The position numbers and the translations under genes were made by a program. 51,966 nt of DNA, taken from an uncultured Granulosicoccaceae bacterium (GTDB lineage: Bacteria; Pseudomonadota; Gammaproteobacteria; Granulosicoccales; Granulosicoccaceae). Below are positions 2,357-49,027 of this stretch, one piece after another (the stretch's first letter is position 1; the number at the start of each line of letters is the position of its first letter). The notes beneath the pieces are model-generated. The model was not told where the DNA came from and did no database searches. It worked only from the letters and a program-made list of their open reading frames with translations. The stretch lies in NCBI GenBank assembly GCA_938020525.1, contig CALIHW010000104.1, positions 1-51,966 on the forward strand, written 5' to 3'.

Positions 2357-2374
2357 GAGTCTGCTTAAAGAAGC

Positions 2375-2394: not shown

Positions 2395-2413
2395 GATTAC
2401 TAAGTTACCCAAT

Positions 2414-2460: not shown

Positions 2461-2488
2461 GCTTCACCTGGAAGGCAATACTGAAAAG

Positions 2489-2770
2489 CTAAATTACTCC
2501 GGCAATTCGCAGACAAACAATCACTGCCACCATCAAAAGCACAGTGAGAAAAATCTGCCAGCGCGTATGACTTAGCTTACTGATACTGCCTAGCAAATAA
2601 GATACAACCAATGCACTACCGAAGGGAATCGCTGCGCGAATCATCGACTTGAATTCATTGCCGGTGCTCGCGAACGCATAAGCAAACACACCGGCCGTCA
2701 ACACCAGCGTAATAAATATTGCTGCCAGCCGAAAACCCCAGCCGGCAGCTTCTTTTGATTTACGCGCCAT
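2489..2770 (-). CDS. Small membrane protein downstream of the lipase
   Basis: This 93-residue protein has a basic N-terminus (MARKSKEAAGWGFR) and three likely membrane helices at about residues 14-34, 45-62 and 71-92. It starts only three bases after the lipase stop codon, so it is almost certainly translated from the fadL-lipase transcript. I recognise no family. Position suggests a role tied to lipid uptake or envelope maintenance, but that is inference. The overlap-free but very tight spacing and sustained hydrophobic pattern make it a believable gene. Confidence 0.7.
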   Translation of the reverse strand: MARKSKEAAGWGFRLAAIFITLVLTAGVFAYAFASTGNEFKSMIRAAIPFGSALVVSYLLGSISKLSHTRWQIFLTVLLMVAVIVCLRIAGVI

Positions 2771-2773
2771 TAA

Positions 2774-9479: not shown

Positions 9480-9884
9480 CTAATTCCAGTCACCGGTTTT
9501 CTTACCCTTACTATTTAGCGTCATAACCTCGCCTGCCGGTTGCTTACCTTGCGCGGTTGCTGTCACCTCTACACAACGGCGAATAGATGCACCACAAGCC
9601 TTCATCTCGCTTATTTTGAACCTGCCGGTTTCAGTTTCAAGTGTCGCACCATAGTTGAGATCTGTAAGATCAGTAGTGTAGGTAACTTCTTTGCGATAGA
9701 ACTGCTCCTGCCTTTCCATCACTTCCAACAGTAATGCAGAGGCTTCTGATCTGCCGACTTTATGCAGATACTGAGTGTATGAAGGAACAGCAATTGCGGC
9801 GATTATGCCGATAATCGCCACAACGATCATGACCTCAATTAGCGTAAAACCTGGAGCCCGCTTAATCATCGCTTTAATTTTCAT
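9480..9884 (-). CDS. pilE: PilE-type minor pilin (type IV pilus)
   Basis: This is a class III pilin of 134 residues. The prepilin leader is followed by the cleavage and methylation site [22 protein letters not shown], with Phe+1 and Glu+5 intact, then the single hydrophobic helix and a Tyr-rich alpha-to-beta transition. Two cysteines ([10 protein letters not shown]) lie near the C-terminus. Two starts are possible (9884 and the ATG at 9869, giving MIKRAPG), both leaving a usable leader. It is the last gene of the minor-pilin operon and overlaps the end of pilY1 by 11 bases, so translation is coupled. It should be cleaved by PilD and join the pilus priming/tip complex with PilV, PilW, PilX, FimT and PilY1. 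Confidence 0.92.
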
Positions 9885-12800: not shown

Positions 12801-13278
12801 CACGACCATGCCAAAGTGCTGTCTGCGTTCCCGTAGCACCAGCTGGCACCATCGCGTCTATTGCATCGAGCAAATCATCTTCAATAGCCTCTATATCGCC
12901 AATAGGCACTGTTAGCTCAGGTGTTGATTCGAATTCGACAATACCAACGTTGACTCCTTCAAGAGCAGTTACAAGCAGCCTTAGGGCCGATTGCACTTTT
13001 TCCATTCTCGTAGGACCAGTATCATCCGCACCATCTCTGAAACTCATTGAGCCAGAGTTATCCAATACAAACAGTATATTCGGCGGAGAAGATTCAGCGC
13101 TAAAAAAGATATCGGTATCGTCAGCACTTACGCCAGCTGAATAACTCAATACCGATGCAATAAAAAGCACTTTGAGTTTTGGCAACTCTTCGCGGTACGT
13201 AAACCGGCTTAATACAGATGAAAGTAACTTGTTCAATTTTAAAATCACCTTGAGAGTCAATCTGTTTATGGCCAACAA
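9874..13278 (-). CDS. pilY1: PilY1-like pilus tip protein with alanine-rich insertion
   Basis: This is a PilY1 homologue of up to 1134 residues. An N-terminal signal-like segment ([18 protein letters not shown]) precedes a von Willebrand A domain with the MIDAS motif DNSGS at residues 73-77. The C-terminal half is the PilY1 beta-propeller (from about 608), with a calcium-loop motif DTDLDGYID at 855-863. Between the conserved WALGRD (458) and the propeller start lies an insertion of about 140 residues (roughly 464-606), more than a third alanine, that is predicted to form long helices. PilY1 caps type IV pili and is involved in adhesion, pilus dynamics and surface sensing. The start is uncertain: the longest frame begins with TTG, and a GTG at 13248 would remove the overlap with pilX. 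It sits between pilX and pilE in one operon. Confidence 0.93.
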
Positions 13279-13790
13279 TAAACATAACGTTGGCGCTGCC
13301 TGGATTTTATGCTGCCAATATTGTTTACACGCCCATCATCCAGCGAAGCGGTAGTCTCTATCACTCCTGCAATTTGCTTTACCTTACCGATACTCTCCCC
13401 GAAACAGCCAATACCGGAATCTGCTCGATCACCCCTGATCTCAGATGCAGTAATATTCACATCTTCTGGATTAGTCAGAACCTTATGGGTAGTGTCGTGC
13501 CCGATATGAACCCGCATATCTTTACCGTTGCTACCGGTGGCAAGCAGGCTATCGATAATCGGGTCATCATCAATTTGCTCATTATCGTTTACCGTATAAA
13601 TCTGCAAATTTGTCTCGCTTGAAGCAGCGTAGAACACCTTCTGTCTAAATTGTTCGTTTCTGACCACAGAAGACTGATTCATCACATCACCCATGGTTCT
13701 TACACCAAGCAAGGTAAGAACAAGCAGTGCTACCAAAGCAACAATTAGCGCCGCACCGGACTGTCTTGAATGGTCTGGTTTTATATTCAT
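13266..13790 (-). CDS. pilX: PilX-type minor pilin
   Basis: This 174-residue protein has a prepilin-type N-terminus: a hydrophilic leader ending RQSG, then AALIVALVALLVLTLLGV. Unlike the other pilins here it lacks Glu+5, a known trait of PilX/GspK-type minor pilins, which are thought to cap the filament. The remainder has the family pattern, with a QKVFYAASSETN segment after the helix and a C-terminal cysteine pair region (GCFGES). Its ATG overlaps the stop of pilW by four bases (ATGA), so the two are translationally coupled. It belongs to the priming complex with PilV, PilW, FimT and PilY1. Confidence 0.88.
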   Translation of the reverse strand: MNIKPDHSRQSGAALIVALVALLVLTLLGVRTMGDVMNQSSVVRNEQFRQKVFYAASSETNLQIYTVNDNEQIDDDPIIDSLLATGSNGKDMRVHIGHDTTHKVLTNPEDVNITASEIRGDRADSGIGCFGESIGKVKQIAGVIETTASLDDGRVNNIGSIKSRQRQRYVYCWP

Positions 13791-14593
13791 GGCAATTTGT
13801 TGTTGATTGTTATGGTTGTCGTGTAAACCTTACGCGACACCCTGTCTGTGAATACAATTTCTGGCGAATCAAAGAGCTGATAGGTTCTGGCTTCTTCCCT
13901 TTCAGAGCCGGAACCATCTACCCCATCAGACACCAGCAGGGCAAGCTTTACGGAACGGACTCGATCCCACGCCAGCTTTTCCTGCTCCTCTGAAAGACCT
14001 GCTGAAGCTACCTGAGATGCATCGACAAACTGGTCTATGATTCCGTCAGCATTACTGACGCCATAGAGTATCTGCAACTGCTCTATTCCATCAATCAATG
14101 ACTCCGCCGGGTCGGTGCTTAACCAACCCTGATTAGTCACACTGTAGCCACGACACAAAAGCTCTGAATCAACAACACTGAATACATTAGCAATTTGCTC
14201 ATTTTCATCAACGTCTTGACCAGCACAGTCTTGCAAGTTCCAGGGCACCATCTGTATTGCTATCTGGTCGGAGTCTCCTGGCGCGTCACCGTTGTAGGTG
14301 CAGGGATCGTCGGAATCATTAGGATCAGTACCACCACAATCACCGAAAAAAAATGGAACGACAGTTCCGATCGGATTATGACTGCCAGCTTGCCGAATGA
14401 ACTGAGAGAGATAAGAAGTTGCAAATGTCGCATTGGCTTCGAGTGAGGTATCTGTACCCTGCTGCTTGAAGAGCTTGGTCGATGTGGAAAGATACTGCAC
14501 AACCATCAGACTAATAAACAACCCGATAACGATCGCAATCATTAACTCAATCAGATTGAGACCATGCTGTTTACAATACAGATTCAGTCTCAC
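13787..14593 (-). CDS. pilW: PilW-type minor pilin
   Basis: This 268-residue minor pilin has a leader ending KQHG, then [24 protein letters not shown], with Glu+5 present and Leu at +1. It is followed by a Ser/Thr-rich region (FKQQGTDTSLEANA) and a long C-terminal globular part with several cysteines, as usual for PilW. The length is in the expected range, longer than PilV and FimT. Both ends overlap the neighbouring pil genes by four bases through ATGA junctions. It is predicted to sit in the inner membrane and to assemble into the tip-initiating minor-pilin complex. Confidence 0.9.
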   Translation of the reverse strand: MRLNLYCKQHGLNLIELMIAIVIGLFISLMVVQYLSTSTKLFKQQGTDTSLEANATFATSYLSQFIRQAGSHNPIGTVVPFFFGDCGGTDPNDSDDPCTYNGDAPGDSDQIAIQMVPWNLQDCAGQDVDENEQIANVFSVVDSELLCRGYSVTNQGWLSTDPAESLIDGIEQLQILYGVSNADGIIDQFVDASQVASAGLSEEQEKLAWDRVRSVKLALLVSDGVDGSGSEREEARTYQLFDSPEIVFTDRVSRKVYTTTITINNKLP

Positions 14594-25077: not shown

Positions 25078-26811
25078 CTAACGGGTTTGAATTTCGATTT
25101 CCATCTGGTTCCACCGATAGTTGATTGAGTGACTTTCACCATTGGCGTTTAGCATTGCATCTGACCAGATAAGCGTCATGGTACGCCCATCTTCACTTAT
25201 CCATTTGGGCGACAGCTTTGGTTGATAGGTCAGATTTTGGGAATTATCTGCAGTCCAGTAGTCAGTGTAATAAATCTGCTTCCAAGGCCCATAAGGGGTA
25301 TCTGAGTACCAAAAACCAAGACTACCAGGGCGGCTGTGCATCCATACGTTGTAGTAGTCAACTGTGGAATTTGTCCGACCACGTCCACCGTATGTACCAC
25401 CGTTAACCATTATGTATTTCTGCAGACCCGGGTTCCAGACTACTGAAGGCAACCAGGAGTAGAAGCCAAAATACTCACCGGCGTTGTTACGCGCCGGCAG
25501 CACTATATTGGGCTGACGAGCTTCCAAATTGCCACTCCAGGTGGGAGTACTGCCGTTCCAGCCGCTGAAGTACTGCCACGCGGATCGATTACCGACCTGG
25601 TCTTCAGGGACCCTTGCCAGCAACAACTGGTTAGTACTGACTCCTTCGGGTGAGTAAACGTAGACAAAGCCATCCTTCGAGGCTCGATGATCCTGACCGC
25701 TCTGTACAAAAGAAGCAAAGGCAAATGGCCATGCCGTCTTGCCTTGACCATTGCGGCCGCTCTCTTCAAAGAAAAACATTTCCTGGTGGATTAGGTCTTC
25801 CCGACCAATATCCCATCGACTGAGATAACGATCGTTGTTGTTGCGATCAACACGGTGCCAATTATTGCCGGAATCATAAGAACGCAGCATCTTCATGCCT
25901 CGAAATGGCCCTTGAGACCAACCGTCCCCTTGTGTCTTTGTAACCAGTGAATACAAAACACCTTTGACTGACAGCATCCCATACGCAAACCACCCATCAC
26001 CGCTCTTTGCGAAATTCGGATATTCGGACACTTCTGATCGAGAAAAATTATTAGCGTCACCATGAATCTTGTACAGCCGACTGTGATAACTCCGCCCCGT
26101 GTTTAACCAGTCGCCATCGTCCATTGCAGTTACCACGCTATCGTCGGCAGCCCATGTTTGACACCAGTTATCTCCTCTGCCGTCGATTCGACGCAAAGTG
26201 GAACGATTAAATTGGACACCATTAGGTGTTGCGCCGAAATTCGACTGCACCCGAACCACCGTGCCACTGGTTGAATTGTTGGCTGACGAATTAACCCCCA
26301 CCAGGCAACTCTGACCGTTCTCGTAACCCCAACCATCACCATCAGAGTCTGAAACACCAGAGCTGCAAGCAGGAACTCCGGCTATTGATGTCGCAGTGGA
26401 CGACGCAGTGTTGATTGCCCCGTTGTTGCCCACCAAACAACTCTGGCCGTTCTCGTAACCCCATCCATCACCGTCAGAATCGGAGACACCATCACTGCAA
26501 GCTGGAACTCCAGGAATTGCCGCAGATGATGATTGGCCGGACACCCTGCAGCTCCGACCCAACTCCCAACCCCAGCCGTCACCGTCAAAATCGGTCACTG
26601 ACGAGCTACACTGCGGCGCAGAACCAGAACCTGAGGCACAACTAGAGCTAGACGCTGCCAACGATCCTGGCGCAACACAAGAAACACCGTTTTCCCAACC
26701 CCATCCATTTGAGTCAAAATTACCGTTAGCGTTTTGACACAGTGGTACAGAAAACGATGCACCACTAAACAAAACCGTACATAAAACCAGATAAGGGCTA
26801 GAAATTTTCAT
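25078..26811 (-). CDS. Secreted CBM10-like/DUF4185-type propeller protein
   Basis: This is a 577-residue exported protein. A signal peptide (about 1-21) is followed by four short cysteine-framed modules at about 25-45, 68-88, 105-125 and 149-169. Each carries GWGWEN or GWGYEN before a second Cys, preceded by DSDGDGWG in the later copies. They resemble carbohydrate-binding module family 10, with an added calcium-type Asp pattern. Serine-rich linkers join them, as in secreted polysaccharidases. Residues about 190-577 look like a five-bladed propeller of the DUF4185 type, a group that includes GH183 arabinanases (SYDSGNNWH, FYSWLPSVVWNPGLQKYIMV, YSDTPYGPWKQIYYTDYW). It is probably a cell-surface or secreted polysaccharide-active protein. 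Catalytic residues were not identified. It stands alone. Confidence 0.75.
   Translation of the reverse strand: MKISSPYLVLCTVLFSGASFSVPLCQNANGNFDSNGWGWENGVSCVAPGSLAASSSSCASGSGSAPQCSSSVTDFDGDGWGWELGRSCRVSGQSSSAAIPGVPACSDGVSDSDGDGWGYENGQSCLVGNNGAINTASSTATSIAGVPACSSGVSDSDGDGWGYENGQSCLVGVNSSANNSTSGTVVRVQSNFGATPNGVQFNRSTLRRIDGRGDNWCQTWAADDSVVTAMDDGDWLNTGRSYHSRLYKIHGDANNFSRSEVSEYPNFAKSGDGWFAYGMLSVKGVLYSLVTKTQGDGWSQGPFRGMKMLRSYDSGNNWHRVDRNNNDRYLSRWDIGREDLIHQEMFFFEESGRNGQGKTAWPFAFASFVQSGQDHRASKDGFVYVYSPEGVSTNQLLLARVPEDQVGNRSAWQYFSGWNGSTPTWSGNLEARQPNIVLPARNNAGEYFGFYSWLPSVVWNPGLQKYIMVNGGTYGGRGRTNSTVDYYNVWMHSRPGSLGFWYSDTPYGPWKQIYYTDYWTADNSQNLTYQPKLSPKWISEDGRTMTLIWSDAMLNANGESHSINYRWNQMEIEIQTR
26300..26745 (-). 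repeat. Four CBM10-like module repeats
   Basis: Four copies of an approximately 21-residue, two-cysteine module lie within the propeller protein gene. Copies three and four are nearly identical in DNA (PACS-GVSDSDGDGWG and YENGQSCLVG shared), which indicates recent duplication, while copies one and two are diverged. Confidence 0.8.
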
Positions 26812-27249: not shown

Positions 27250-28941
27250 ATGCTGGAACTTCATACCACGCCGCTGATGTGGGCAACACTTTTGTTGCTG
27301 TTTTTTATTTGTCTCTGGTGGTTTATTGTTGAGTGGGGTTTTAGCAAATCCGCCTCCAATATACCCACTACTAAAAAGCCTGCGGCACCAAGTCAACAGC
27401 ACCGCCAGACAAACACGGATCAAGAGCACCACTCTATACAGGCAAAATCAGCAATAGCCCTGCAACAAGCGGATGGACATCCTGCCAGTCCGCCAATCAG
27501 CCGCCCCAACAAAAACGCAACCAACCAACTACAGCAACAAAATCGAGAGGCTTTAAAGCAAGGTCGAAATACCCCAAACAAAACATCAATTAATCAAAGC
27601 AGCACTTCAACCAGCATTCCAAAGAAAGACAGTCAAACAAGGCAACATTGCAGTACTAAGCCTGACAAGAGCACTGGCGTTACACCAGACAGCGCCCCGA
27701 GTGTAAAAAACAGCCAGACCACTACAAGCACCCAAAATCTTCAGACTCAAAAATCCAACCAGAAAATTGCAAATGCAACCGGTCGGCAAGAGCACCCTGC
27801 AAGCTCACAATCTAAACTCACGAATAATGGTAACGCTCAAAACTCTGGTGTAGAAACGATTAAGAGCACCAGTTACAGCCTTGATCCAGAAGCAGCTACC
27901 ACCATACAGAATACTTGCAGCCAACAAACTCCGGCGCACACTGTGGCAAAAAATACAAAGCCCACTCAGGCGTTACCTCAACCAGTCAAACGCGTCAGCC
28001 ACTCAACTAATTCCGACTGCCACAAGCTTACTGCATCACCGACAAGGGTTGAGAAACAAAAACCTGTTTCTACCACTACCGATGCAGCACAATCTTCTGA
28101 CAATAAAACATCCGGTACAACATCAAAATATCAAACAGCAGCGAAGGCGCGACATCCTTCATCCAGAAGCGAAGCATCGCTTCAAGTTCCAAATCCGGCA
28201 GCACACAAAACCCGCAAACATCAGACAGAGCTGAAGAAGTCGGCACAAAATCAGAACAACAACTCCACCAGCCAGCAAGCGCTGAATAAAAACGCGGAAC
28301 CAGTTACTTCTACCATCCAGAAGCCCCACGAAGACAGCAAGCAACCTCTTAAGATTGCATCTGTAAAAACCACAGAGTCTACTGCACCTGCCACAAGGCA
28401 AGAGGTGCGATCAAACCACGGGAATAAGACAAAAAACAGCAGCAATACGATACCATTCAATAAGTATCAAAGGCCTGGTTCGCAAAGCCCTGGCTCAAAA
28501 AACCTTGGCTCAAAACACCCTGGCACACAAAACCGTGGCACACATCGAAAACAATCTTCTATAGAAGTAGCAGTGGCACTGCAAATCTCTGAGATTCAAC
28601 CTGAGCTATCTCAAGCGCCGATTGCAAAACATCTTGAAGAAAGCGTCAATACCAAGCACGCTTCTACACCAACAAGCAACAGCCATCTTGATGAGACAAG
28701 ATCCCGATCAGGCAGCCCTATTGTAAAGGCCGCAGACGAAAATCCAGCAGTTGATGGTGACGCAGCACTAAGGGCACAGTTAGCTTCTAGCGAACGACTG
28801 ATAAAGTCGCTTCAGTCCACGCTCAACAGTGTGCAAAACGACCCTTCAGATATCACATCGACAGCTACGCAAAAACCACGGCAACACAACAGACCATCAC
28901 TGTTAAGCAAAGTCCGTGTGCTCGACCATCCAAGAACGTGA
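27250..28941 (+). CDS. Membrane-anchored low-complexity (disordered) protein
   Basis: This 563-residue protein has one membrane helix near the N-terminus (TLLLLFFICLWWFIVEWGF, about 13-31) and then about 480 residues dominated by Ser, Thr, Gln, Asn, Lys and Ala with almost no hydrophobic residues, so it is predicted to be intrinsically disordered. Five imperfect five-residue units (PGSQS, PGSKN, LGSKH, PGTQN, RGTH) lie at about 409-432. Near the end DAALRAQLASSERLIKSLQS looks like a short coiled coil. The layout (anchor, long spacer, short terminal helix) recalls ZipA or TonB in shape only; no domain of either is present. The reading frame is intact despite the bias, and no alternative frame is better. 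Function unknown. No partner gene is obvious; the ABC operon begins about 200 bases later. Confidence 0.7.
   Translation: MLELHTTPLMWATLLLLFFICLWWFIVEWGFSKSASNIPTTKKPAAPSQQHRQTNTDQEHHSIQAKSAIALQQADGHPASPPISRPNKNATNQLQQQNREALKQGRNTPNKTSINQSSTSTSIPKKDSQTRQHCSTKPDKSTGVTPDSAPSVKNSQTTTSTQNLQTQKSNQKIANATGRQEHPASSQSKLTNNGNAQNSGVETIKSTSYSLDPEAATTIQNTCSQQTPAHTVAKNTKPTQALPQPVKRVSHSTNSDCHKLTASPTRVEKQKPVSTTTDAAQSSDNKTSGTTSKYQTAAKARHPSSRSEASLQVPNPAAHKTRKHQTELKKSAQNQNNNSTSQQALNKNAEPVTSTIQKPHEDSKQPLKIASVKTTESTAPATRQEVRSNHGNKTKNSSNTIPFNKYQRPGSQSPGSKNLGSKHPGTQNRGTHRKQSSIEVAVALQISEIQPELSQAPIAKHLEESVNTKHASTPTSNSHLDETRSRSGSPIVKAADENPAVDGDAALRAQLASSERLIKSLQSTLNSVQNDPSDITSTATQKPRQHNRPSLLSKVRVLDHPRT
28474..28545 (+). 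repeat. Five 15-bp tandem repeats
   Basis: Consecutive 15-base units, CCTGGYWCRMAAARM-like, encode P/L/R-G-S/T-K/Q-N/S/H pentapeptides within the low-complexity membrane protein. The last unit is 12 bases before divergence. Confidence 0.75.
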
Positions 28942-38140: not shown

Positions 38141-41100
38141 GTGCCAAAACGCTCAAAAGCCAATTTGTCTCCGGCCGGTCACAAGACCAACAGGAAACAT
38201 AGAACTGCAGTGCTGGAATCGCTTGAGCAGAGAGTTCTCTTCTCAGCCGATATCGGTACGCATCATATGTTCGTGTACCAGCCAGACAATGAACTACATC
38301 TTGCAAGCTCCATTACTGTGGCCGCATCTGATAATGATTCGCTGCCACCCTCGCTGCTTACAGCGAATTCACTATCGGCCCTGCCATCTACTTTCGGTGA
38401 AATCACAACACCTATAGCCTTCGATGACGCAACCATAGATTCATGGCAAGGCGCACTTGCACCAGCCTCCTCAGCTGATATCACAAACAGCATTGGAGGC
38501 GGTTTGAGCCTGAACCAGGACGGTGGCAATGACGCATACCTCAAACCAGAAAACAGTACATTGCTTTTTTCAGGCTTGCAGCAGCTTACCTTTGAAATTC
38601 AAATTAGCTCTAACGAGCTACAAAGTGGTGATTCATTCGCTCACTATCGCACAGCGACCACTGATGGATTTAAACTTGAACTGGCAGGCACAGACTTTAT
38701 CCTGACTATAAACAACACCACAACCACTGCAGCAAGCATAGATTATGTCGCTGCATTAAATGACGGCGAGCAGCATAGTGTAACCACTACCTGGGATAGC
38801 ACGACTGGTGAGTGGCAGGTATTTATCGATGGCGAACTGGTTGACAACGGGACTGGCTCTTCAACTACAGCAATATCAAATGCAGCCGGTGTACTGGTAC
38901 TTGGTCAATCGCAAGGTGCACAGGAAGGTAATTTTGATCAAACTCAATCACTCAGTGCGACGCTGCATGAGGCGAGAATATTCAGTACTGTTCGCAGTGA
39001 ATTTGAAATAGGATCCTCTCACTTAAGCTCCATCCCCTGGAGCGAAACCGATCTAATCGCTAACTGGACATTCGACCATTTTTCATCAAACGGTGTTATT
39101 AATGACAGTGTTGCCGGTAATAACCTGCATGCACTGCATGTCACTGAACCGGGATTCACCACGAGCGACACATCTCTAAAGCTGCGTGTCACAGAAAACA
39201 CGCCAACCGGAACAGTAATTGGCACGGTAGCCGGAATAGATACGAATCGCGAAGCACAGATCAACGCAATCGTTGCATCAAGCGCAGATATCTATCATAG
39301 CGCTGAAACAGGATCATTTTATCAGGTTATCCACACTCCACAACTGCACATGGATGCTGTCGCAACCGCACAGACTATCCCATTGAATGGCGCTTACGGC
39401 CAATTATTGTCAATAAACTCTGCGACAGAAAATTCAACTGTTGTTGACATCATGAGCGATGCCGGCGTGTCTCAGACACACCTGAACGCTACGGACACTG
39501 ACGTTGAGGGTGACTGGAGATGGAGAGACAGTGGGAGCCTGTTCTGGAAAAACAGCAGTGACCATAATATTCCGGAAGATGGTGCTTACAGCAACTGGAG
39601 CACCACCAACCCGAATAACGTCAACGATCAGGACGTGGCAAAGATATTTGCATCAGATGGTCTTTGGGATGATGTGAAAGACTCCGCCACATTCAAATGG
39701 ATAATCAAATACGATGCCGATTCGGTTTTGAGCAGTAACGGTACATTCGGTAACCATCAACTCACTTATGCTATCGGTTCCCAGTCTGTTGCAAACACGT
39801 TTACGATAGACCCTCTCAGTGGTGAAATAAGCGTTGCAAATGGAGCTAACCTCAACTTCGAAATTCTGCCACTACACTCAATTCAGGTCGAAATAACTGA
39901 TCCCGATGGTAACTCGGTAAGTCAGCAACTCGATATTGCAATCACAGATGCAGCGGAATCCGATCAAGCCCCGACTAATCTATCAAATGGCATCCAGATA
40001 AACTCTGATGGTGGCAATGACACCTATCTACAAGCCGCCAATGGCAGTCAGATTCTAGGTGGATTGGATGAGCTGACGATCGAGTTCATCCTGCAGCTGG
40101 AAGCGCCACCAAACAACACAGCACAAACACTATTATCTTATGCTACAGCCGCAGAGAACAAAGAAGTACTGCTACAAGTTAGCCCAGCTGGCAACATTGA
40201 ATTCACTGTCAACGAAAACACCCTGACGACCATCGACAGTTTCCCCGAGCTTTATGACGGGCGGCTCCACACAGTCTCTGCTACCTGGAGCTCTAACAAC
40301 GGTGTTGCTTTTCTATATTTCGACGGCATCCTGGTGGCGACGGATACAGGTATTGCAAGTGGAAGTGTATTAGAGACCAACGGTTCTCTGGTGATTGGCA
40401 ATAGCCAGACAAGTCCGGGCAATGGTTTTTCATTTGACCAGGCGATGCATGCCACTTTGCATGACATTCGCATCTGGGATCACGCAAGAACAGATTCAGA
40501 AATTTCGCTCAACAGCTACTCAAAATATTTGACTGCCTCAGGGCTAATCGCAAACTGGCAAATGCATAGCATAAACAGCCAGGGAGAAATAACCGACGAG
40601 ATCAATGCTGAAATACTATCGATAAATCACTCAGTCGGCAGCGGTTTCATAAGCAGTAACGTGATCGAACGTCTAACTATTAAGGAAAAAAGTGCAGCAG
40701 GAAGTACAGTAGGTTTTGTCTTGCCAACCGATCAACTACTGTTTCAGGATGTTCTAACAGATGGCAAGCTGCTAAATGAGAATCCGCTACCAACCAGCAC
40801 CATTACCGTTTACGCAGGTGATTCTGTTGGTGACTGGAATGTAGCAGACGGATCAGTTGATTTTGCTTCACCAACAATAATTGCCGGCCCAAATGGCAGT
40901 CATGCAATCGAGTTGAGTGGCGATGATGCGGGAACCATCATCAGCACTTCATTTAATACTGTACCCGGGCAATCGTATACAGCATCCTTTGCCGCCAACG
41001 CCAATTTTGCACTAGCGGATACCAAGTACAAGGATTTTATCGTAAGTGCTGCAGGTCAATCGCAGCAATACAGCATTGAGCATATCGGAACAAACTGGAT

Positions 41101-44100
41101 TAACGAACACTGGGAGCGGCTTTCTTTTGTGTTTACCGCACAAGGGAACACTGCCGAACTATCACTACAGTCTCTTGACAGCAGTCCGTTCGGGCCATAC
41201 ATCGCCGACATATCAGTGACAGAAATTCCCGAAGCAGTGAATGGTATCTTGTCCACAACGCCGGATCTCACTTACAACCCAAACACTGGGAAGTTCTATA
41301 AATTTGTAGATACCCCTGTCCGAAATGATATTGCACTTAGCGCGGCAAGAGCCGAACTGGTCAACGGCGTAAGCGGTCAGCTATTTACCGTCAGGTCGCA
41401 ACTTGAAAATGAACTGGCCAGGCAGTACGCGCAGCAAAGTGGTAATCAAATCTGGCTCGGTGCAACAAGAACAGACACCTCGGGCACGTGGAACTGGCTG
41501 TCTGGCACCGACACGGCCGATCCGTTCTGGACCGGAGGGCGAAACGGTAGTGCCACTAGCACCAGCTATGCATCACACATGGGTCTTTCGGAGCAACCTG
41601 CAGAGGACTATATACGTTTGGCTGCAAACGGTGACTGGTATGACGCCAGCAACAATGGCCCATATAGCTACATTATAGAGTGGGACGCCGAAGCGGTAGT
41701 TGGCAACTACACCTACACGATGACGGATCTGTCCGAAAATTTCATCATTGATTCGAATACTGGCGAAATCACTGCAGCCACCACAAATACCCTGGACTTT
41801 GAAACCGCTCAGTCGCACACAGTCTCTATCACTGTTACCGACTCTAACGCCAACACTTACAGTAAATCGGTGATGATAGATGTGATTGATGTCAGTTCCG
41901 AGCTCAGCCTCGACCTACCAGCACTGCAAACCACGCCGGAAGACACATCACTGCTTTTCAATACCGCCAACGGCAATTCAATACGGGTCGACGATGACTA
42001 TGGTGCCGACACTCTGCTGCAGACTACATTATCAGTGACCGATGGCGTACTACAACTTCCTCCATCACCGGGGATAATGTTTATTGATTCAAACGGCGCT
42101 GCAACAACAAGCTCAGCGGCAAATATTCTTACTATTAGCGGCACAGAGACTAACACAAACAACGCACTGCAGAATCTTGTATATACGCCTGACCCTGCAT
42201 TTAACGGTACGGACAATCTGGCCATAAATACCACCACGGATGTGAACCTTGAAGCACACTACAGCTTCAACGACTCTACTGCCAATGACAACAGCTATGG
42301 CAATATTCGCAATGGCACCTATATAGGCGGCGCCAATACATCAATTGATTCTACTCGTGGCACTGTACTGGAGCTAACAGGCTCAGGCGATAGCGTTGTA
42401 GTCGCCTCAAACTTCGGCTCACCCGCCTCCATATCACTGGGTGGCTGGGTTAACTACTCAGGCACTGGTCAAGCAGACTTTATCTCTCTCGATGACCGAC
42501 TTACCATTTCACTAGACGATGCCATACACAATGGCGTCACTGCCAGATTCAAAACGCTCGGCAACAACACAGTAGAACTGCATACTGATACTGTCCTCAC
42601 AGGAATCGGCTGGCATCATATATTCTATGTGCACGACTCTTTAAACGGCATACATGCACTGTATATAGATGGAGAAAAAGCAGCAACGGCAACCATACCT
42701 GCACCGATTGATTACACTGGAATAAACAACACCTACCTCGGTACTAGCCAGGCCACCGGCCCGGTTACCAGCCCAGCTACCAACGATAACGACTTTATTG
42801 GTCAGATGGACGATATCCGGGTGTACTCAAGATCTGTATCGCAGGATGAAATTGTCGGCATCATCAACGGTGAAAATCAGATCGCCGGATTAATCCCGAT
42901 CAATATCACAGCAGTCAATGACGCACCCTACTTTACGACAACTCCACCTGTAATCAATCCAGCGGCAACGATCCCTGTCGTGGGGCAGACCAATGAAGAG
43001 AACCGTCTGACGGGGCTCTTCGTTGAAACAGTAGATATCGACAGTGGTACCAACTCTGTACTTACGACAATAAATGTCAATAATGGAATCATCAGCGTTG
43101 TAAACCTGACCGGTACTATCGTCTCAGGCGCCAACAGTTCTGCTGATCTGGTTTTCACAGGCACAATAAACGATATCAACACATCGCTGAGTAATATAAC
43201 CTTCACGCCTGACGCGGAATTCAATGGTCTTGCCACAATCACCATTGATATCAATGATCAGGGCAATACCGGCTCAGGCGGGGCTCTGAGTGTTTCTGAA
43301 ACACTTAATATCCAGGTGAATCCGGTAAATGATCCACCACTGCTTCAGTCACCTGAATCTACAGTAGTCACGTTTACCGAGAACAGCACCCCTGTTCCGG
43401 TTAGCTCGTTATTATCAATCACTGATCCGGACAACCTTCAACTGCAGTCAGCCACTGTTAGCATTATTTCTGGCTACATTGCCAATGAAGATGAACTATC
43501 GATCTCCTCGCAGCCAAATATTGTCAGCACCTTTGATAACACGACAGGCATATTGACTCTCAGCGGGCTCGCATCAATTACAGAATACGAAAACGCTCTG
43601 CGCGACATCACGTATCGCAATATCTCGGAAAATCCAACAATCAACAACAAGCAACTCAGCTTTAACATCAACGATGGCAATGTTTTCAGCGACAGCTGGC
43701 TGAGGCAATTGAACGTAGTAACTGTGAATGATGCACCCAGCCTATCCGGGATCACTACAACATCGCTGAATTACACCGAGAATGACGGAATACAAATTGT
43801 CAGTCCATCTATAGCGATTACAGATGCAGATGATACCAATATTAATTCCGCCACAGCTGAGATTATAAATAACCACGCGGGAGTGGAAGACTTGTTGTCC
43901 TTTACTCCGCAAGCTGGCATCAATGGTGTTTTCGATTCTATTAACGGAAAATTAACTTTCACCGGCAGTGCCTCTCTGAATGACTATCAAACCCTATTAC
44001 GCTCTGTTACATATCAAAACCAGAGCGAAGACCCGGATACTTTAACGAGAGTTCTTGGCTATACCGTCAATGACGGTCAATCTATCAGCAACACCGCAAT

Positions 44101-47100
44101 TCGAAATATTTCTATTACACCAGAAAATGACCCACCGATTCTAAACAGTATAGAAACGGACGCACTGACCTTTACAGAGAACGACAACGCAAAAACAGTA
44201 AGCTCATCACTTGAACTAACTGACGAAGACAACCAGACACTGGTATCGGCAGTAGTTCGAATTAGTACTAACTATGTCGATGGGCAGGATAAACTTCAGT
44301 TTAGTAGCCAGTCAGGTATAAGCGGTATATTCAATTCAAACACCGGAACTCTAAGTCTCTCCGGAGTTGCAACAGTCTCAGAATATCAAACGGCTCTTCG
44401 ATCGATCAGATACCTGAATGTCAGCGACAACCCCGACACATCAACGAGAGAGCTTACAATTACCGTTTCTGACGGCGCAGCCACCGGCAACCAGCAAATG
44501 CGTGAACTAACAGTAGTCGCTGTTAATGATGCCCCGGATATATCGTCAGTAGAAGCAGCTTCACTTGTCTATATCGAGAACGACCCAGCCACACCGATAT
44601 CTTCGAATATAAAAATCGACGATGTAGACCACACACAACTGAGTTCCGCCACAGTCTCAATCATCTCAAACCTTGATGAGTCTCAGGACATTCTCTCACT
44701 CGCCATACCGTCTCCTAGCAACATAAGTGGTAGTTACAATGCATCTGCTGGCGTACTGAGTCTGACGGGTAATGCCGCTATTTCTGAGTACCAGTCAGTG
44801 TTGCGCTCTGTTAGTTACCAAAATACGAGCAATGATCCTGATACTCAGTCAAGAACTGTAGAGTTTAAAATATCCGATGAAAACACAGACAGCAACACAG
44901 ACAGCAACACCGGCACCCGGAATATCGATTTAACCCCTGTGAATGATGCGCCTACTCTAACCAGTGCGGTGACTACACCACTCGCCTATCCAGAAAACGC
45001 CGGTGCAATCCCGGTGAACGCAGCGATAGCAATCCTCGATCCGGATGACACACTTATAGATTCGGCTACTATTCAAATCAGCAGCAACTATAACGCAAAT
45101 GAAGACATTCTTTCTATGGACTCAACGCCGGGTATCACCAGCGTCTATGATTCGATCAGCGGCACCCTGAGTCTAGTGGGTACCGCTACCATGCAGGACT
45201 ATCAATCAGCACTTCAGTCAGTCAGTTATAGCAACAGTAATCAAAACCCAGATACCGCTACGCGCACTATTATATTCAGCGTCTCTGACGGTCAACTGAC
45301 AAGTAATATGGTCCCTCAGGAAATTGAAATTCAGCCTGACAACAATGCACCTGCGATTGCCAACGTAGAAACTACCCCAGTTATCTATACCGAGAACAAC
45401 CCACTGACATCTCTAACCTCGTCACTATCACTGGGTGACGCAGATAACACCCACCTACAGTCAGCAATAATTAGCATCAATGCCGGATTCGATTCCTCTG
45501 AAGATATTCTGAATATGCCCGCTCAACCAGGAATCACATCTACATTCAACAGCAGTACAGGCCAACTACTGCTAAGCGGAGACGCAACACTCGCCGAGTA
45601 TGAAACTGCCATCAGATTGGTATCTTATACGAACAACAGCGAAAACCCCGGCACACAATCACGATCTATTACGTTTACAGTCACAGACGGACAACACACT
45701 AGCAACACTGCAACAAGAGCTCTAGAAATTATCCCTGTTAATGATTCGCCAACAATCGATCTGGGTGGAGCAAACGCGCCAATCCACATCGAAAGCACAG
45801 CCGGTACTATTGTATCTCCCGCACTAACTGTATATGACCTGGACAACACCAGCCTTCAATCTGCAACCGTTATTATAGGCAATAACTATAATCCAGCCGA
45901 AGATCAACTGGAATATATCAACCAATCCGGTATTGTCGGTGTTTTCGCCAATGGCGTGTTGTCTCTTTCTGGCAATGCCACCGTTGCTCAATACCAGCAA
46001 GCTCTGAGAACAGTCAGCTATCTAAACAATAGCGATGCGCCAGACGCTTCAACAAGAGAAATTTCATTTAGCGTAAACGACGGTCAAAGCAATAGTGTTA
46101 TCCAAACCATTGAAGTGGAAGTAGAAACTTCAAACGATGCTCCGGAGCTCACAAATACGGAGACAGCTTCACAGCTCTATATTGAAGGTGCCACACCAGT
46201 GCCGGTGACCTCAGGCATCACCCTGAATGATCTCGACAATACAAACCTCACCGCCGCGGTTATATCTGTAGTGAATGCTTCTCCCACAGATGACAGGCTT
46301 CTCTTTAACGATCAAAGCGGAATAACCGGAACCTACGATGTTAACAACGGCCAGCTACAACTCAGTGGAACAGCAAGCCTAGCTGACTATGACGCTGCGA
46401 TAAGGTCAGTTACCTACCAAAACCTATCTGAACATCCGATGGCAGGCACAAGAAACGTTGAAGTGACTGTTTTTGATGGCACAGACACCAGCAATAGTGT
46501 CACACGAGATCTCACCGTAATGCCTGTCAACGACGCTCCCATTGCATCTGATATTGAATTGACGCCAGTGTATTTCATCGAAAATTCTACTGCAGTTGCA
46601 ATCACAGACACAATCAAATTAAGCGATCCGGATCATAGTTTGGTGAGCTCAGCACAAATCAGCATCTCTGCAAGCTTCGCTTCAGCAGAGGATCAATTAT
46701 TATTCAACGATCAATCCGGAATAACAGGCAACTACAACGAGGCTACCGGCGAACTAAGTCTCTCAGGAACCGCAACACTTATTCAATATCAGGACGCAAT
46801 CCAATCGGTCCGCTACCTGAACATCAGTGAAGATCCCTCAACCTCTTCCCGAACAGTCAGCATTACAATTAGCGATGGCCAACTGAACAGTGAGACTACC
46901 ACGCGCGCCATTTCAATACATGAAATTAATGATCAACCTGTACTGTCCGACCCTGGGAATTCAGATTTGTCATTTCTGGAGAACACAGGCGCAATCGAAA
47001 TTCTACAAACACTACATATTAGCGATTCAGACAATGCAACCCTCCTGTCAGCCACGGTTTCTATTTCACCTAGTTTGACTGAAGATCAGTTACTCTTTGA

Positions 47101-49027
47101 GGATCAATCCGGAATAAGTGGAAGATATAGCAACGCTGGCAGTATTCTATCTCTCAGTGGAGCGGCATCAGTTATTCAGTATGAAAATGCTTTGCAATCG
47201 ATCACTTATACAAACCACAGCGACGCACCATCAGATGTAGTACGTATTTTGTCAGTTAACGTAGATGACGGCATAAGTAGCAGCAATGTCGCATCCAAAT
47301 CTCTCACCGTTATCCCGGTTAGTGACACCCCGGAGGGAGGCGATAGCATAATCAGCATCGCCGAAGATTCAGATTATGTTTTCCATTCGGCCAATTTTGG
47401 TTTTAAAGATCTTAAAGACGGCGATGCGTTTAGCAGCATCGTGATTACCACATCACCAAAGAACGGCACACTACTGCTCTACGGAGTCATCCAACCGCCT
47501 GATTCAATAATCAGCATCGCTGATATATCGACTGGAAAATTCACTTTCAGGGCAAACCCCAATAGCACTGATACAAGCAATTTTGGATTCCTGGTTCAGG
47601 ACAGTGGCAACACCCTTAATGGAGGTGCATTCACCGATCCAACCGAGAACTTCATCGCTATAGAATTAACTTCAATCAATGATGCACCGAATTTAATCAA
47701 CAATGGAATCACAGTTGATGAAGGCAGTACAATTGCAATCGATACAGACTCACTTACCGCCACAGATATCGAAAGCAATAGCGCTCAACTTGGCTTTACT
47801 CTACTACGAGTTCCAGAGCATGGAGTACTGAACCTGAATGGAAGCGCACTAGGCATTGACGACACTTTCACCCTGGCGCAAATAGAATCAAATGACATCA
47901 CTTACATACATAACGGATCCGAGACAGAGGCTGATTATTTCGAGATAGCGCTGCAGGACGGAGATAGCAGCCTACCCGTATTCGGGAGATTCAATATAAC
48001 CATCAATGAGAGTATTGATCCGACCCCTGTAGCCGCCGATGATAACTTTACAGTTCTATCTGGTTCAACACTAGATACCAGCGACTCACTGACATCCATT
48101 CTTGATAATGACCTGACGATAGAGAGCGATATTTCACTGTCAATTGTAACCGCACCGAAGCACGGTACATTGGTATTCAACCCTGACGGTACGTTTATAT
48201 ATCATCACGATGAAAACAGCACAGCTACAGCGGATGAGTTTACCTACCGGCTTACCAATCAGGATAACGTGTCTGCAATTGCCACCGTTTCAATCTCAGT
48301 CGAACCGCAACCGCAACCAGAGTTAGTAACAGCGCCTGAACCTGCTATAGCTCCGGTGATTGAGAAGATTCCTCAATCAAACATTTTGTCGATTGCGCCA
48401 GCATCTGTAAACACGATACCAATCACTGGTGGGACAGCTCAGATCATTAGCGCAACCGAATTTGAAGCAGTAGAACCGGACTCGATACAGCTATCCACCC
48501 AAAACCCGCCAGCGGACTCTGGACTCGAGACCATAGAAGGCTTCGATAGAGCAGCGGCTATTAACCTGGCAAGCGACAACAAGGCTCAACTGCCAATAGC
48601 ACGATTCTCACTTGAGGCACTCACAACAATTCAGCACAACAAACATGAGAAAATAACGGTTAGCTCCCATATTGATTCTTCGACCACCAATGTACTCAAC
48701 GTATCAATAAATGTAAGCTCAACACCATTGCAAGTGATCGATAACGAGAATTTTTCCCGATCACTAAGCAACCTGGCCGACGATCTGCAGAAAGCCAGTG
48801 ATCAGGAAAAAATGCGCCATGATGTAAATACTGATGCGTTATTTGGCGTTTCATTTAGTTTAACCGCCGCCTTCATTGGCTGGACTCTGCGCGGTGGCGC
48901 ACTACTGGGGAGCATGTTGGCATTGCAACCCTTATGGGCAAGTGCTGACCCTATAAAAGCGGCCAGTAAAATTCGCGACAACGACTCGACAAAAGAAGAC
49001 TCAAAGCTGGAGGAAATATTTGACTAG
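38141..49027 (+). CDS. Giant LEPR-motif multidomain surface protein (LamG, C-type lectin-like, cadherin-like)
   Basis: This 3628-residue protein starts at a GTG. A basic N-terminus leads to LESLEQRVLFSADI (25-38), a variant of the LEPR-XLL motif of giant gammaproteobacterial proteins; no classical signal peptide is visible. Modules in order: LamG (about 120-335), C-type-lectin-like (387-527), cadherin-like (528-605), LamG (617-835), choice-of-anchor/DUF642-like sandwich (867-1030), C-type-lectin-like (1047-1183), cadherin-like (1184-1252), Ig/cadherin-like (1253-1366), LamG (1368-1590), one NDAP-start domain (1592-1727), ten tandem repeats of about 133 residues (1728-3058), two more domains (3059-3290) and a VCBS/Ig-7-like domain (3290-3385). 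The last 65 residues hold a hydrophobic segment (GVSFSLTAAFIGWTLRGGAL) and a charged tail. There are no RTX nonapeptides and no type I signal. It is probably an adhesin. Confidence 0.9.
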   Translation: MPKRSKANLSPAGHKTNRKHRTAVLESLEQRVLFSADIGTHHMFVYQPDNELHLASSITVAASDNDSLPPSLLTANSLSALPSTFGEITTPIAFDDATIDSWQGALAPASSADITNSIGGGLSLNQDGGNDAYLKPENSTLLFSGLQQLTFEIQISSNELQSGDSFAHYRTATTDGFKLELAGTDFILTINNTTTTAASIDYVAALNDGEQHSVTTTWDSTTGEWQVFIDGELVDNGTGSSTTAISNAAGVLVLGQSQGAQEGNFDQTQSLSATLHEARIFSTVRSEFEIGSSHLSSIPWSETDLIANWTFDHFSSNGVINDSVAGNNLHALHVTEPGFTTSDTSLKLRVTENTPTGTVIGTVAGIDTNREAQINAIVASSADIYHSAETGSFYQVIHTPQLHMDAVATAQTIPLNGAYGQLLSINSATENSTVVDIMSDAGVSQTHLNATDTDVEGDWRWRDSGSLFWKNSSDHNIPEDGAYSNWSTTNPNNVNDQDVAKIFASDGLWDDVKDSATFKWIIKYDADSVLSSNGTFGNHQLTYAIGSQSVANTFTIDPLSGEISVANGANLNFEILPLHSIQVEITDPDGNSVSQQLDIAITDAAESDQAPTNLSNGIQINSDGGNDTYLQAANGSQILGGLDELTIEFILQLEAPPNNTAQTLLSYATAAENKEVLLQVSPAGNIEFTVNENTLTTIDSFPELYDGRLHTVSATWSSNNGVAFLYFDGILVATDTGIASGSVLETNGSLVIGNSQTSPGNGFSFDQAMHATLHDIRIWDHARTDSEISLNSYSKYLTASGLIANWQMHSINSQGEITDEINAEILSINHSVGSGFISSNVIERLTIKEKSAAGSTVGFVLPTDQLLFQDVLTDGKLLNENPLPTSTITVYAGDSVGDWNVADGSVDFASPTIIAGPNGSHAIELSGDDAGTIISTSFNTVPGQSYTASFAANANFALADTKYKDFIVSAAGQSQQYSIEHIGTNWINEHWERLSFVFTAQGNTAELSLQSLDSSPFGPYIADISVTEIPEAVNGILSTTPDLTYNPNTGKFYKFVDTPVRNDIALSAARAELVNGVSGQLFTVRSQLENELARQYAQQSGNQIWLGATRTDTSGTWNWLSGTDTADPFWTGGRNGSATSTSYASHMGLSEQPAEDYIRLAANGDWYDASNNGPYSYIIEWDAEAVVGNYTYTMTDLSENFIIDSNTGEITAATTNTLDFETAQSHTVSITVTDSNANTYSKSVMIDVIDVSSELSLDLPALQTTPEDTSLLFNTANGNSIRVDDDYGADTLLQTTLSVTDGVLQLPPSPGIMFIDSNGAATTSSAANILTISGTETNTNNALQNLVYTPDPAFNGTDNLAINTTTDVNLEAHYSFNDSTANDNSYGNIRNGTYIGGANTSIDSTRGTVLELTGSGDSVVVASNFGSPASISLGGWVNYSGTGQADFISLDDRLTISLDDAIHNGVTARFKTLGNNTVELHTDTVLTGIGWHHIFYVHDSLNGIHALYIDGEKAATATIPAPIDYTGINNTYLGTSQATGPVTSPATNDNDFIGQMDDIRVYSRSVSQDEIVGIINGENQIAGLIPINITAVNDAPYFTTTPPVINPAATIPVVGQTNEENRLTGLFVETVDIDSGTNSVLTTINVNNGIISVVNLTGTIVSGANSSADLVFTGTINDINTSLSNITFTPDAEFNGLATITIDINDQGNTGSGGALSVSETLNIQVNPVNDPPLLQSPESTVVTFTENSTPVPVSSLLSITDPDNLQLQSATVSIISGYIANEDELSISSQPNIVSTFDNTTGILTLSGLASITEYENALRDITYRNISENPTINNKQLSFNINDGNVFSDSWLRQLNVVTVNDAPSLSGITTTSLNYTENDGIQIVSPSIAITDADDTNINSATAEIINNHAGVEDLLSFTPQAGINGVFDSINGKLTFTGSASLNDYQTLLRSVTYQNQSEDPDTLTRVLGYTVNDGQSISNTAIRNISITPENDPPILNSIETDALTFTENDNAKTVSSSLELTDEDNQTLVSAVVRISTNYVDGQDKLQFSSQSGISGIFNSNTGTLSLSGVATVSEYQTALRSIRYLNVSDNPDTSTRELTITVSDGAATGNQQMRELTVVAVNDAPDISSVEAASLVYIENDPATPISSNIKIDDVDHTQLSSATVSIISNLDESQDILSLAIPSPSNISGSYNASAGVLSLTGNAAISEYQSVLRSVSYQNTSNDPDTQSRTVEFKISDENTDSNTDSNTGTRNIDLTPVNDAPTLTSAVTTPLAYPENAGAIPVNAAIAILDPDDTLIDSATIQISSNYNANEDILSMDSTPGITSVYDSISGTLSLVGTATMQDYQSALQSVSYSNSNQNPDTATRTIIFSVSDGQLTSNMVPQEIEIQPDNNAPAIANVETTPVIYTENNPLTSLTSSLSLGDADNTHLQSAIISINAGFDSSEDILNMPAQPGITSTFNSSTGQLLLSGDATLAEYETAIRLVSYTNNSENPGTQSRSITFTVTDGQHTSNTATRALEIIPVNDSPTIDLGGANAPIHIESTAGTIVSPALTVYDLDNTSLQSATVIIGNNYNPAEDQLEYINQSGIVGVFANGVLSLSGNATVAQYQQALRTVSYLNNSDAPDASTREISFSVNDGQSNSVIQTIEVEVETSNDAPELTNTETASQLYIEGATPVPVTSGITLNDLDNTNLTAAVISVVNASPTDDRLLFNDQSGITGTYDVNNGQLQLSGTASLADYDAAIRSVTYQNLSEHPMAGTRNVEVTVFDGTDTSNSVTRDLTVMPVNDAPIASDIELTPVYFIENSTAVAITDTIKLSDPDHSLVSSAQISISASFASAEDQLLFNDQSGITGNYNEATGELSLSGTATLIQYQDAIQSVRYLNISEDPSTSSRTVSITISDGQLNSETTTRAISIHEINDQPVLSDPGNSDLSFLENTGAIEILQTLHISDSDNATLLSATVSISPSLTEDQLLFEDQSGISGRYSNAGSILSLSGAASVIQYENALQSITYTNHSDAPSDVVRILSVNVDDGISSSNVASKSLTVIPVSDTPEGGDSIISIAEDSDYVFHSANFGFKDLKDGDAFSSIVITTSPKNGTLLLYGVIQPPDSIISIADISTGKFTFRANPNSTDTSNFGFLVQDSGNTLNGGAFTDPTENFIAIELTSINDAPNLINNGITVDEGSTIAIDTDSLTATDIESNSAQLGFTLLRVPEHGVLNLNGSALGIDDTFTLAQIESNDITYIHNGSETEADYFEIALQDGDSSLPVFGRFNITINESIDPTPVAADDNFTVLSGSTLDTSDSLTSILDNDLTIESDISLSIVTAPKHGTLVFNPDGTFIYHHDENSTATADEFTYRLTNQDNVSAIATVSISVEPQPQPELVTAPEPAIAPVIEKIPQSNILSIAPASVNTIPITGGTAQIISATEFEAVEPDSIQLSTQNPPADSGLETIEGFDRAAAINLASDNKAQLPIARFSLEALTTIQHNKHEKITVSSHIDSSTTNVLNVSINVSSTPLQVIDNENFSRSLSNLADDLQKASDQEKMRHDVNTDALFGVSFSLTAAFIGWTLRGGALLGSMLALQPLWASADPIKAASKIRDNDSTKEDSKLEEIFD
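43322..47314 (+). repeat. Ten tandem ~399-bp (133-residue) repeats
   Basis: Repeat starts (NDAP-type) fall at residues 1728, 1861, 1994, 2127, 2266, 2399, 2532, 2663, 2795 and 2928, with the array ending near 3058; spacing is 131-139. Shared elements in order are an ENxxAxPVSS-like strand, a D-D-L-SATV-IS-N strand, ED-L, SGI-G-YN, LSG-A---YQ-ALRSV-Y-N, and TR---V-DG. The copies are diverged in DNA, so homogenisation has not been recent. Confidence 0.92.

Follow-up and report, generated by a model that had tools for sequence, protein, structure and literature searches.

A giant LEPR-motif protein with a lectin-like head from an uncultured Granulosicoccaceae bacterium and its candidate PqqD-M50-HlyD reader

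Introduction

LEPR-XLL has so far been a database label (NCBIfam LEPR-8K, NF012209) on very large bacterial proteins, and no function is given for the motif in the open-access literature that we found, as represented by the available portions of two sources (PMC10868602, PMC9611531). Here we analyse a 51,966-nucleotide stretch of DNA (hereafter the window) from an uncultured Granulosicoccaceae bacterium (GenBank assembly GCA_938020525.1, contig CALIHW010000104.1, positions 1 to 51,966 of the forward strand), which contains the gene of a giant LEPR-motif protein (Table 1), together with an operon elsewhere in the same genome. The central product of this operon, a fusion of a PqqD-like domain, an M50 protease and a HlyD-type adaptor (M50-HlyD, or the reader), may recognise the motif. 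The window protein shares with LEPR-XLL proteins the N-terminal motif, the giant size and the repeats, but membership of that family depends on the motif alone, whereas here the motif is tied to a reader and occurs in two subtypes.

PqqD-like domains, known as recognition elements of ribosomally synthesised and post-translationally modified peptides (RiPPs), bind leader peptides. The reader resembles such elements (lasso B1, PqqD) in fold and in the N-terminal position of the domain, but RiPP recognition elements serve small peptides, whereas the reader is fused to M50 and HlyD parts and is associated with giant open reading frames (ORFs). Its N-terminal and M50 region also aligns, below cut-off, with the models for the daptide protease (NF041824; 1.3e-48) and LiaK/YydH (NF058609), which are shorter (379 and 246 positions, respectively); the match stops before the HlyD part and the genomic partners differ. 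Type I secretion relies on a HlyD-TolC-ABC (ATP-binding cassette) assembly and exports RTX adhesins such as LapA and SiiE. HlyD-type adaptors, an outer membrane efflux protein (in a type-2 operon, see below) and a giant, acidic, cysteine-poor cargo are common to both systems, but the operons of the window's own family have no visible ABC exporter, the leader-like motif is N-terminal and the window protein is without RTX repeats. In Gram-positives, the accessory Sec system (SecA2) exports giant serine-rich adhesins; a second SecA linked to giant adhesins is found here too, although this Gram-negative version is short and optional and stands with M50/HlyD. Pentraxins and collectin-type C-type lectins have the folds of the head domains described below, which differ in being bacterial, in standing in one chain with a DUF642 domain and a cadherin rod and, in the window copy, in being without the canonical EPN/WND.

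A reader-protease-adaptor protein with a giant cargo was not found described in the open-access literature, preprints and most subscription journals lying outside the search; the parts are of known kinds and, as far as this literature shows, their combination is new. The tie between motif and reader would turn the LEPR-XLL label into a testable sorting signal and predict which giants use the route, in two specificity classes. If true, RiPP-style recognition of leaders would apply not just to small peptides but also to proteins thousands of residues long, and the tie hints at a means by which these bacteria may display lectins. The genus Granulosicoccus (family Granulosicoccaceae) is described, in the accessible part of one study, as dominating the symbionts near the surface of kelp (PMC8944128).

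Co-occurrence of LEPR giants and the M50-HlyD operon

A first-pass annotation of the window, made from the sequence alone, had noted an N-terminal LEPR-like motif and treated it as a label. The motif does lie at the far N-terminus (amino acids (aa) 24–37 of 3628), and we find that it is the most informative part of the protein. Against the NF012209 cut-off of 17 bits it scored 24.1 bits in a genome scan (over) and 16.2 bits in a protein scan (under), and it is on both scores, together with the position of the motif and the size of the protein, that we count the window protein as a new member of the LEPR-XLL giants. It is one of four giants of ~3600–4040 codons in its genome (4.53 Mb, 224 contigs, 93.3% complete), encoded on contigs C25, C104 (the window), C52 and C103. 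When the genome is scanned, three of the four exceed the NF012209 cut-off and the fourth falls just short; all four carry both the N-terminal motif (divergent on C103, IEALSNRVLFSAD) and a C-terminal hydrophobic tail, W.[LV]RGG......P.W...D. One orphan tail (GYVIWLVRGGLLISSVMASLPAWRTIDPLPVL; L042:12624-12818, corresponding to C52:42623-42817 of this genome, minus strand) occupies a frame of 88 aa that no giant ORF precedes; it appears to be what is left of another LEPR giant.

LEPR giants co-occur with the M50-HlyD operon in two phyla. Among 57 relatives, M50-HlyD (E<1e-100) was found in 35 and the tail, detected by profile, in 34; both were present in 34 genomes and neither in 22, with M50-HlyD alone in a single genome of 75% completeness (G043) and the tail alone in none. 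Members of two genera of the family jointly lack M50-HlyD and the tail (G018 and G021 of g6; G029 of g4). M50-HlyD is encoded by 72 of 299 Pseudomonadota genomes, and a LEPR ORF of at least 800 aa was detected in 39/72 of these versus 0/227 of the genomes without it at E<=0.01, or 52/72 versus 1/227 at E<=0.05. A similar picture emerged from 148 genomes of the phylum to which the Nitrospiraceae genome G373 belongs: LEPR ORFs of at least 500 aa (E<=0.05) were found in 17/22 genomes with M50-HlyD and in 0/126 without it. Fisher tests of these length-limited tables, in which kinship is ignored, returned values of 2.6e-29 and 3.1e-18, respectively.

LEPR ORFs, which range from ~700 to >19,000 codons among those associated with the system, are frequently close to the reader gene. 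In genomes with M50-HlyD, 35/74 LEPR ORFs of Pseudomonadota (at least 800 aa) and 19/24 of the second phylum lie within 10 kb of it, and in the latter phylum the distance is 400 bases or less in 11/24 cases. The longest frame in the Pseudomonadota LEPR listing has 19427 codons (motif at G115:C115:112865-112924, minus strand). We also inspected 80 named loci out of at least 567 related stretches. A LEPR motif was visible in the flanks of 16/80 by a strict pattern, or 18/80 when two loci recognised by a looser pattern (L110 and L143) are included, and in 24 further named loci the upstream giant is cut by the locus edge. When genomes found via M50-HlyD only, without a visible flank motif, were scanned (49 genomes, drawn from 62 such loci), 43/49 had a LEPR match at E<=0.05, versus 1/14 control genomes. 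Judging by the organism names of the sequence records, reader loci also occur in Desulfobulbaceae and Omnitrophota.

Reader clades and motif subtypes

Full-length M50-HlyD matches form two score classes (>=576 bits versus <=499 bits). Reader types were assigned by bit score before the 55 motifs were read, the idea having come from one case (G024). The motifs read comprise all 35 Pseudomonadota cases within 10 kb, all 19 cases of the second phylum and one 378-aa ORF (G373:C46), leaving unread those of G303, G190 and G274, at 10.8–15.5 kb from the reader, and three at 35.9 kb or more. Residue x of the pattern R.[LMF][LFYM]x is S (20) or A (5) in 25/25 type-1 cases and D in 30/30 type-2 cases, and an extra E precedes the motif in 25/25 versus 1/30; the reader clade matches the motif subtype (S/A versus D) in 55/55 neighbouring pairs. 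Four genomes (G508, G455, G373 and G151) hold both reader types, each with its own motif. A FastTree tree of 40 readers and 3 from the window's own family resolves the same two clades (support 1.0/0.966). The window motif belongs to type 1, as does the only full reader of its genome.

The partner operon and its reader protein

The core of the LEPR-associated operon consists of the fused PqqD-like/M50/HlyD protein, a GAF-HlyD protein, a HlyD protein and, optionally, a truncated SecA. In the window's genome the operon lies on contig C90 and encodes GAF-HlyD (628 aa), M50-HlyD (731 aa), HlyD (279 aa) and a PAS-GGDEF-EAL protein (1096 aa), with neither SecA nor a cargo gene beside it. The run GAF-HlyD, M50-HlyD, SecA-like, HlyD ends with a LEPR giant in G027 and G028. 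In G015, G016, G024 and G031 the giant at the end of the run has a LEPR-like N-terminus by eye, untagged by the pattern, and among these four only G016 has a SecA-like gene. Two type-2 operons encode an outer membrane efflux protein, identified by Pfam in G003 (C113) and by similarity in G024 (C125). A homologue of the PAS-GGDEF-EAL protein (L083:6278-9568) follows the export operon in all ten own-genus loci fetched, which hints that the giants may be under the control of cyclic diguanylate.

The N-terminus of the reader has the PqqD-like sequence and the winged fold of a RiPP recognition element. Pfam PqqD matched this region in 31/43 members (E<=0.5, best 2.1e-6), and PqqD was the top result of a profile search against PDB (4.4e-4). 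The AlphaFold model of the N-terminal part (mean predicted local distance difference test (pLDDT) 85.5) shows three strands followed by helices, and the two best Foldseek targets are lasso B1 proteins solved with leader peptides (6jx3 and 5v1u, probability 1.00). These similarities suggest that the PqqD-like domain may bind the LEPR leader. In the M50 part, the HExxH motif and a distal aspartate (H227, E228, H231 and D329) are invariant in 43/43 members; the membrane topology of the reader by hydropathy is not decisive. The SecA-like proteins of the operons are ~665–740 aa long, without the wing/scaffold family in the 3 scanned, and an accessory SecA is present in 8/35 relatives with M50-HlyD. 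A universal need for an accessory SecA was considered and rejected, as 27/35 of these relatives are without one and the only SecA match (E<=1e-50) in the window's own genome has a 920-codon frame.

A compact complete system, convenient as a model, was observed in Desulfobulbaceae bacterium BRH_c16a (L155:8241-20929), where GAF-HlyD, M50-HlyD, SecA-like and HlyD genes are followed by an 877-aa cargo, which carries both the LEPR motif and the tail, and then by a GGDEF protein.

Domain architecture of the window protein

The protein is encoded by one uninterrupted frame, as the first-pass annotation had read it, and the nearest in-frame upstream stop is a TAA at 38108, so the GTG given in Table 1 is the earliest possible start. 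All modules listed in that annotation were recovered, namely three LamG domains (Laminin_G_3 2.5e-36 over three stretches, 4.3e-15 for the third copy alone; Pentaxin 7.4e-32), two C-type-lectin-like domains (Lectin_C 1.8e-11, two stretches) and cadherin-like domains (Cadherin 5.7e-9; Cadherin_3 4.2e-25). It had overlooked the DUF642 domain, the C-terminal tail and the lack of cysteine. DUF642 was detected at aa 886–1026 (3.7e-11, 43.5 bits against a Pfam cut-off of 27), and the choice-of-anchor C model TIGR04362 scored 79.2 bits, under its cut-off of 120.

The head is not one unrelated fold: LamG and C-type-lectin folds were predicted with confidence, and relatives keep the head modules. The AlphaFold model of aa 90–1255 has a mean pLDDT of 80.9 but a low predicted template-modelling score (0.43), so the individual modules are reliable and their relative placement is not. 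Foldseek returned human CRP (0.81), PTX3 (0.77), CL-K1 (0.80) and SP-D (0.82) as matches (TM-scores normalised on the target); model and Foldseek cover the first two LamG/pentraxin copies, while all three copies match by family. EPN together with WND is the canonical sugar- and calcium-binding pair of C-type lectins. In an alignment of the head with 18 relatives, the second C-type-lectin domain was reached in 15, of which 8 have EPN and 7 of those 8 WND as well, one of the eight (L024) having been fetched via the first half of the head, which makes its place in the alignment doubtful. EPN is absent from this domain in the window protein and its closest relatives (L010–L013); the window copy has EQP and WYD instead, and its first C-type-lectin domain has NPN and WDD. 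The earlier suggestion of a head that recognises a polysaccharide or glycoprotein thus stands at the level of fold, with the canonical sugar motifs absent from the window protein and ligand residues conserved in only part of its relatives. By predicted fold a lectin function is plausible, whereas canonical mannose-type binding by the window's own C-type-lectin copies is not supported by their residues.

The predicted ten-copy rod was largely recovered by alignment, with nine units of 32–48% identity (mean 41%) at a period of 131–137 aa and a tenth inferred from one double-length gap (263 aa); the tandem-95 repeat model matched nine stretches (1.4e-36), and a DNA-level repeat finder missed the units, which are too diverged. 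The protein has a strong excess of acidic residues and zero cysteines. Its 24 sister giants, some of them cut by contig ends, have 0–4 cysteines each, and 24 other ORFs of 700–1250 aa from the loci of sister giants average 7.2 per 1000 residues. The first 90 aa contain no classical hydrophobic signal peptide (best 15-aa hydropathy 0.86, compared with 1.81–2.19 for three HlyD signal peptides).

The hydrophobic C-terminal tail follows the consensus W..[RQ].[GA]...S......P.W...D, and its profile, in which the window tail is one of 13 rows, matched the window protein at E 1.2e-25 in its own genome. The view that the tail is a general signal was rejected, since its profile matched two ORFs in the 80 named loci, one in L155 and one in L132 (where the ORF leaves the locus), and gave no match to any of the 24 upstream giants with a visible C-terminus. 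Short (G)LIDW/VNW-like ends were seen in 17/24 upstream giants of other clades versus 19/436 control ORFs, a lead only, as the pattern was written after looking at those giants, and four giants (L144, L152, L169 and L173) share a DFV.H......RNPNA stretch. Both could possibly be alternative C-terminal signals.

Table 1 Features of the LEPR giant gene and its product (window coordinates; domain borders approximate where marked ~)
Feature	Window position	Protein position (aa)	Strand	Basis or remark
Gene of the LEPR giant, predicted surface protein, 3628 aa	38141..49027		+	GTG start; TAG stop included
LEPR-XLL-type N-terminal motif VLESLEQRVLFSAD	38210..38257	24-37 (profile to 39)	+	Type 1 by first E and S
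LamG/pentraxin-like domain 1	38471..39115	~111-325	+	Pfam, model, Foldseek; borders approximate
C-type-lectin-like domain 1	39272..39748	~378-536	+	NPN at aa 490-492, WDD at aa 509-511
Cadherin domain 1	39752..39958	~538-606	+	Pfam
LamG/pentraxin-like domain 2	39977..40591	~613-817	+	Pfam, PDB sequence search, Foldseek
DUF642 (choice-of-anchor-C-like) domain	40772..41230	~878-1030	+	Pfam, NCBIfam
C-type-lectin-like domain 2	41258..41704	~1040-1188	+	EQP at aa 1151-1153, WYD at aa 1166-1168
Cadherin domain 2	41705..41905	~1189-1255	+	Cadherin_FAT4_N stretch 1189-1250, under model cut-off
LamG domain 3	42302..42880	~1388-1580	+	Laminin_G_3 4.3e-15
Rod of ten ~133-aa cadherin-like repeats	43328..47326	~1730-3062	+	Alignment; tandem-95, Cadherin_3
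C-terminal cadherin-like/bacterial Ig domains	47690..48295	3184-3385	+	Cadherin_3, Cadherin_4, Big_9
Conserved hydrophobic C-terminal tail GVSFSLTAAFIGWTLRGGALLGSMLALQPLWASADP	48845..48952	3569-3604	+	Charged end after it

Proposed route and alternative explanations

We consider it probable that the window protein is a surface adhesin whose LEPR leader is read by the PqqD-like domain of the PqqD-M50-HlyD protein, and that the operon provides an envelope-spanning route or a processing station. The motif would then be a sorting leader, not a lectin feature, and the PqqD-like domain would grip it at the inner membrane; the C90 fusion protein, GAF-HlyD, a periplasmic HlyD and an outer-membrane factor would together form the route or station. 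SecA would push the chain out, with the truncated accessory SecA acting where an operon has one and the housekeeping SecA acting here, while the chain passes or docks on the HlyD adaptors. The M50 part, as an intramembrane protease, could act on a signal inserted in the membrane, which would be the LEPR leader region or else the tail. This clade-specific hydrophobic tail probably retains the protein at the envelope, until cleavage or permanently, and the head of three pentraxin/LamG folds, two C-type-lectin folds and one DUF642 domain would be displayed on the cadherin-type rod. The available sequences appear to fit a conduit and a mere sorting protease alike. The broader proposal, which we regard as evenly poised, is that Gram-negative bacteria possess a dedicated secretion system built around a RiPP-type reader domain. 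Joined in one chain to a site-2 protease and a HlyD adaptor, this domain would pick out giants by their N-terminal LEPR leader for export without an ABC ATPase. The system would comprise at least two specificity classes (LEPR..(L/F)(S/A) and LEPR..FD) and extend over Pseudomonadota and the phylum of the Nitrospiraceae and also, going by the names of the records, over Desulfobulbaceae and Omnitrophota. To our knowledge, such a system is on no list.

Several observations weigh against recognition of the leader and export by this operon. The own reader matches PqqD at 5.2e-4 but with 20.7 bits, under the gathering threshold of 23.4, its M50 match (17.2 bits) is likewise under the Pfam threshold of 27.2, and the Foldseek matches of the PqqD-like domain are weak (E 4e-3, none at or below 1e-3). 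The own operon contains no recognisable gene for an outer-membrane factor, in a search that did not extend to TolC-type genes elsewhere, and the window's genome yielded no accessory SecA. The LEPR profile has 24 positions only, and the association is less strict when matches of any length (E<=0.05) are admitted: 57/72 Pseudomonadota with M50-HlyD versus 9/227 without it, the nine lying in frames of <600 aa in eight cases and of 1014 aa in G083, and 17/22 versus 3/126 genomes of the second phylum, the three in frames of up to 355 aa. Conversely, 33/72 Pseudomonadota with M50-HlyD have no LEPR ORF of 800 aa at E<=0.01 (20/72 at E<=0.05), and the control genome with a LEPR match is that of Deinobacterium chartae. 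The rarity of the tail among the named loci and their upstream giants counts on the same side. Inheritance of the operon as a whole could also yield the pairing of reader clade and motif subtype, which therefore supports recognition without proving it.

General Sec export combined with a separate step at the outer membrane, in which case the PqqD-M50-HlyD protein would do no more than process or release the giants, like a sorting protease outside any conduit, is possible, if rather unlikely. It would accommodate the accessory SecA found in part of the operons (not here), the invariant HExxH and D329, a hydrophobic tail that could serve as an intramembrane substrate and own-family operons in which no ABC exporter was seen; yet a classical signal peptide is missing from the first 90 aa, and a conduit is favoured by the two HlyD-type proteins encoded besides the fusion and by the outer membrane efflux protein of the type-2 operon in G003, with its related ORF in G024. 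That the operon makes and exports a small modified peptide, an idea prompted by the PqqD-like domain and the resemblance to the daptide protease, with the LEPR giants as bystanders inherited along with it, strikes us as very improbable. The G027 homologue does match the daptide intramembrane metalloprotease model (1.3e-48), but with 166.1 bits against a cut-off of 300. A small precursor would have escaped ORF lists with a floor of 90–100 aa, which counts for this explanation, whereas 0/10 own-genus operon loci have a LEPR or tail ORF beside the operon and the giants are nevertheless kept with it, and 11/24 second-phylum LEPR ORFs lie within 400 bases of the reader gene.

Giant size, acidic composition, a cadherin-like rod and absence of cysteine, all properties of the window protein, are typical of LapA/BapA/SiiE-kind adhesins. 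An ordinary type I secreted adhesin of this kind, with a C-terminal signal and an ABC exporter, the M50-HlyD operon merely sharing its hosts, nevertheless seems improbable here. An LssB-/HlyB-like ABC protein (E<=1e-120) is present in 13/34 tail-positive relatives, 6 of them over the LssB cut-off, but there was no match at this threshold in the other 21 or in the window's own genome (93.3% complete; 16/133 and 16/135 first-look candidates scored), while all three tail-negative family members do have one. The window protein has no GGxGxD RTX repeats, and its conserved tail is hydrophobic and co-occurs with M50-HlyD (34/35). The exporter search and the missing repeats disfavour type I secretion of this protein. 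According to the available part of its description (PMC10868602), a LEPR-XLL protein of Vibrio carries RTX and serralysin domains at its C-terminus, and some LEPR proteins may thus use type I secretion, a further point against the route proposed above.

Genomic surroundings

The statement of the first-pass annotation that no partner is apparent from the window holds for the neighbouring genes, although the same genome has a likely export partner on contig C90. No export partner was recognised among the annotated neighbours within the window, which encode a carbonic anhydrase, YaaA, a molybdopterin oxidoreductase, a thiamine pyrophosphate enzyme, an aminotransferase, a tetratricopeptide repeat protein and an MTHFR-like protein, and no RNA families were found in it. 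A 563-aa ORF at 27250-28941 (plus strand) has no Pfam match at E<=0.01. The product of 25078-26811 (minus strand) has two stretches that match CBM_10 and one that matches DUF4185 below its cut-off, and is possibly a secreted, polysaccharide-binding protein. At 9874-14593 (minus strand) the window contains a type IV pilus-type cluster with PilW and a VWA protein that has a PQQ (pyrroloquinoline quinone)-type stretch and that we take to be PilY1-like.

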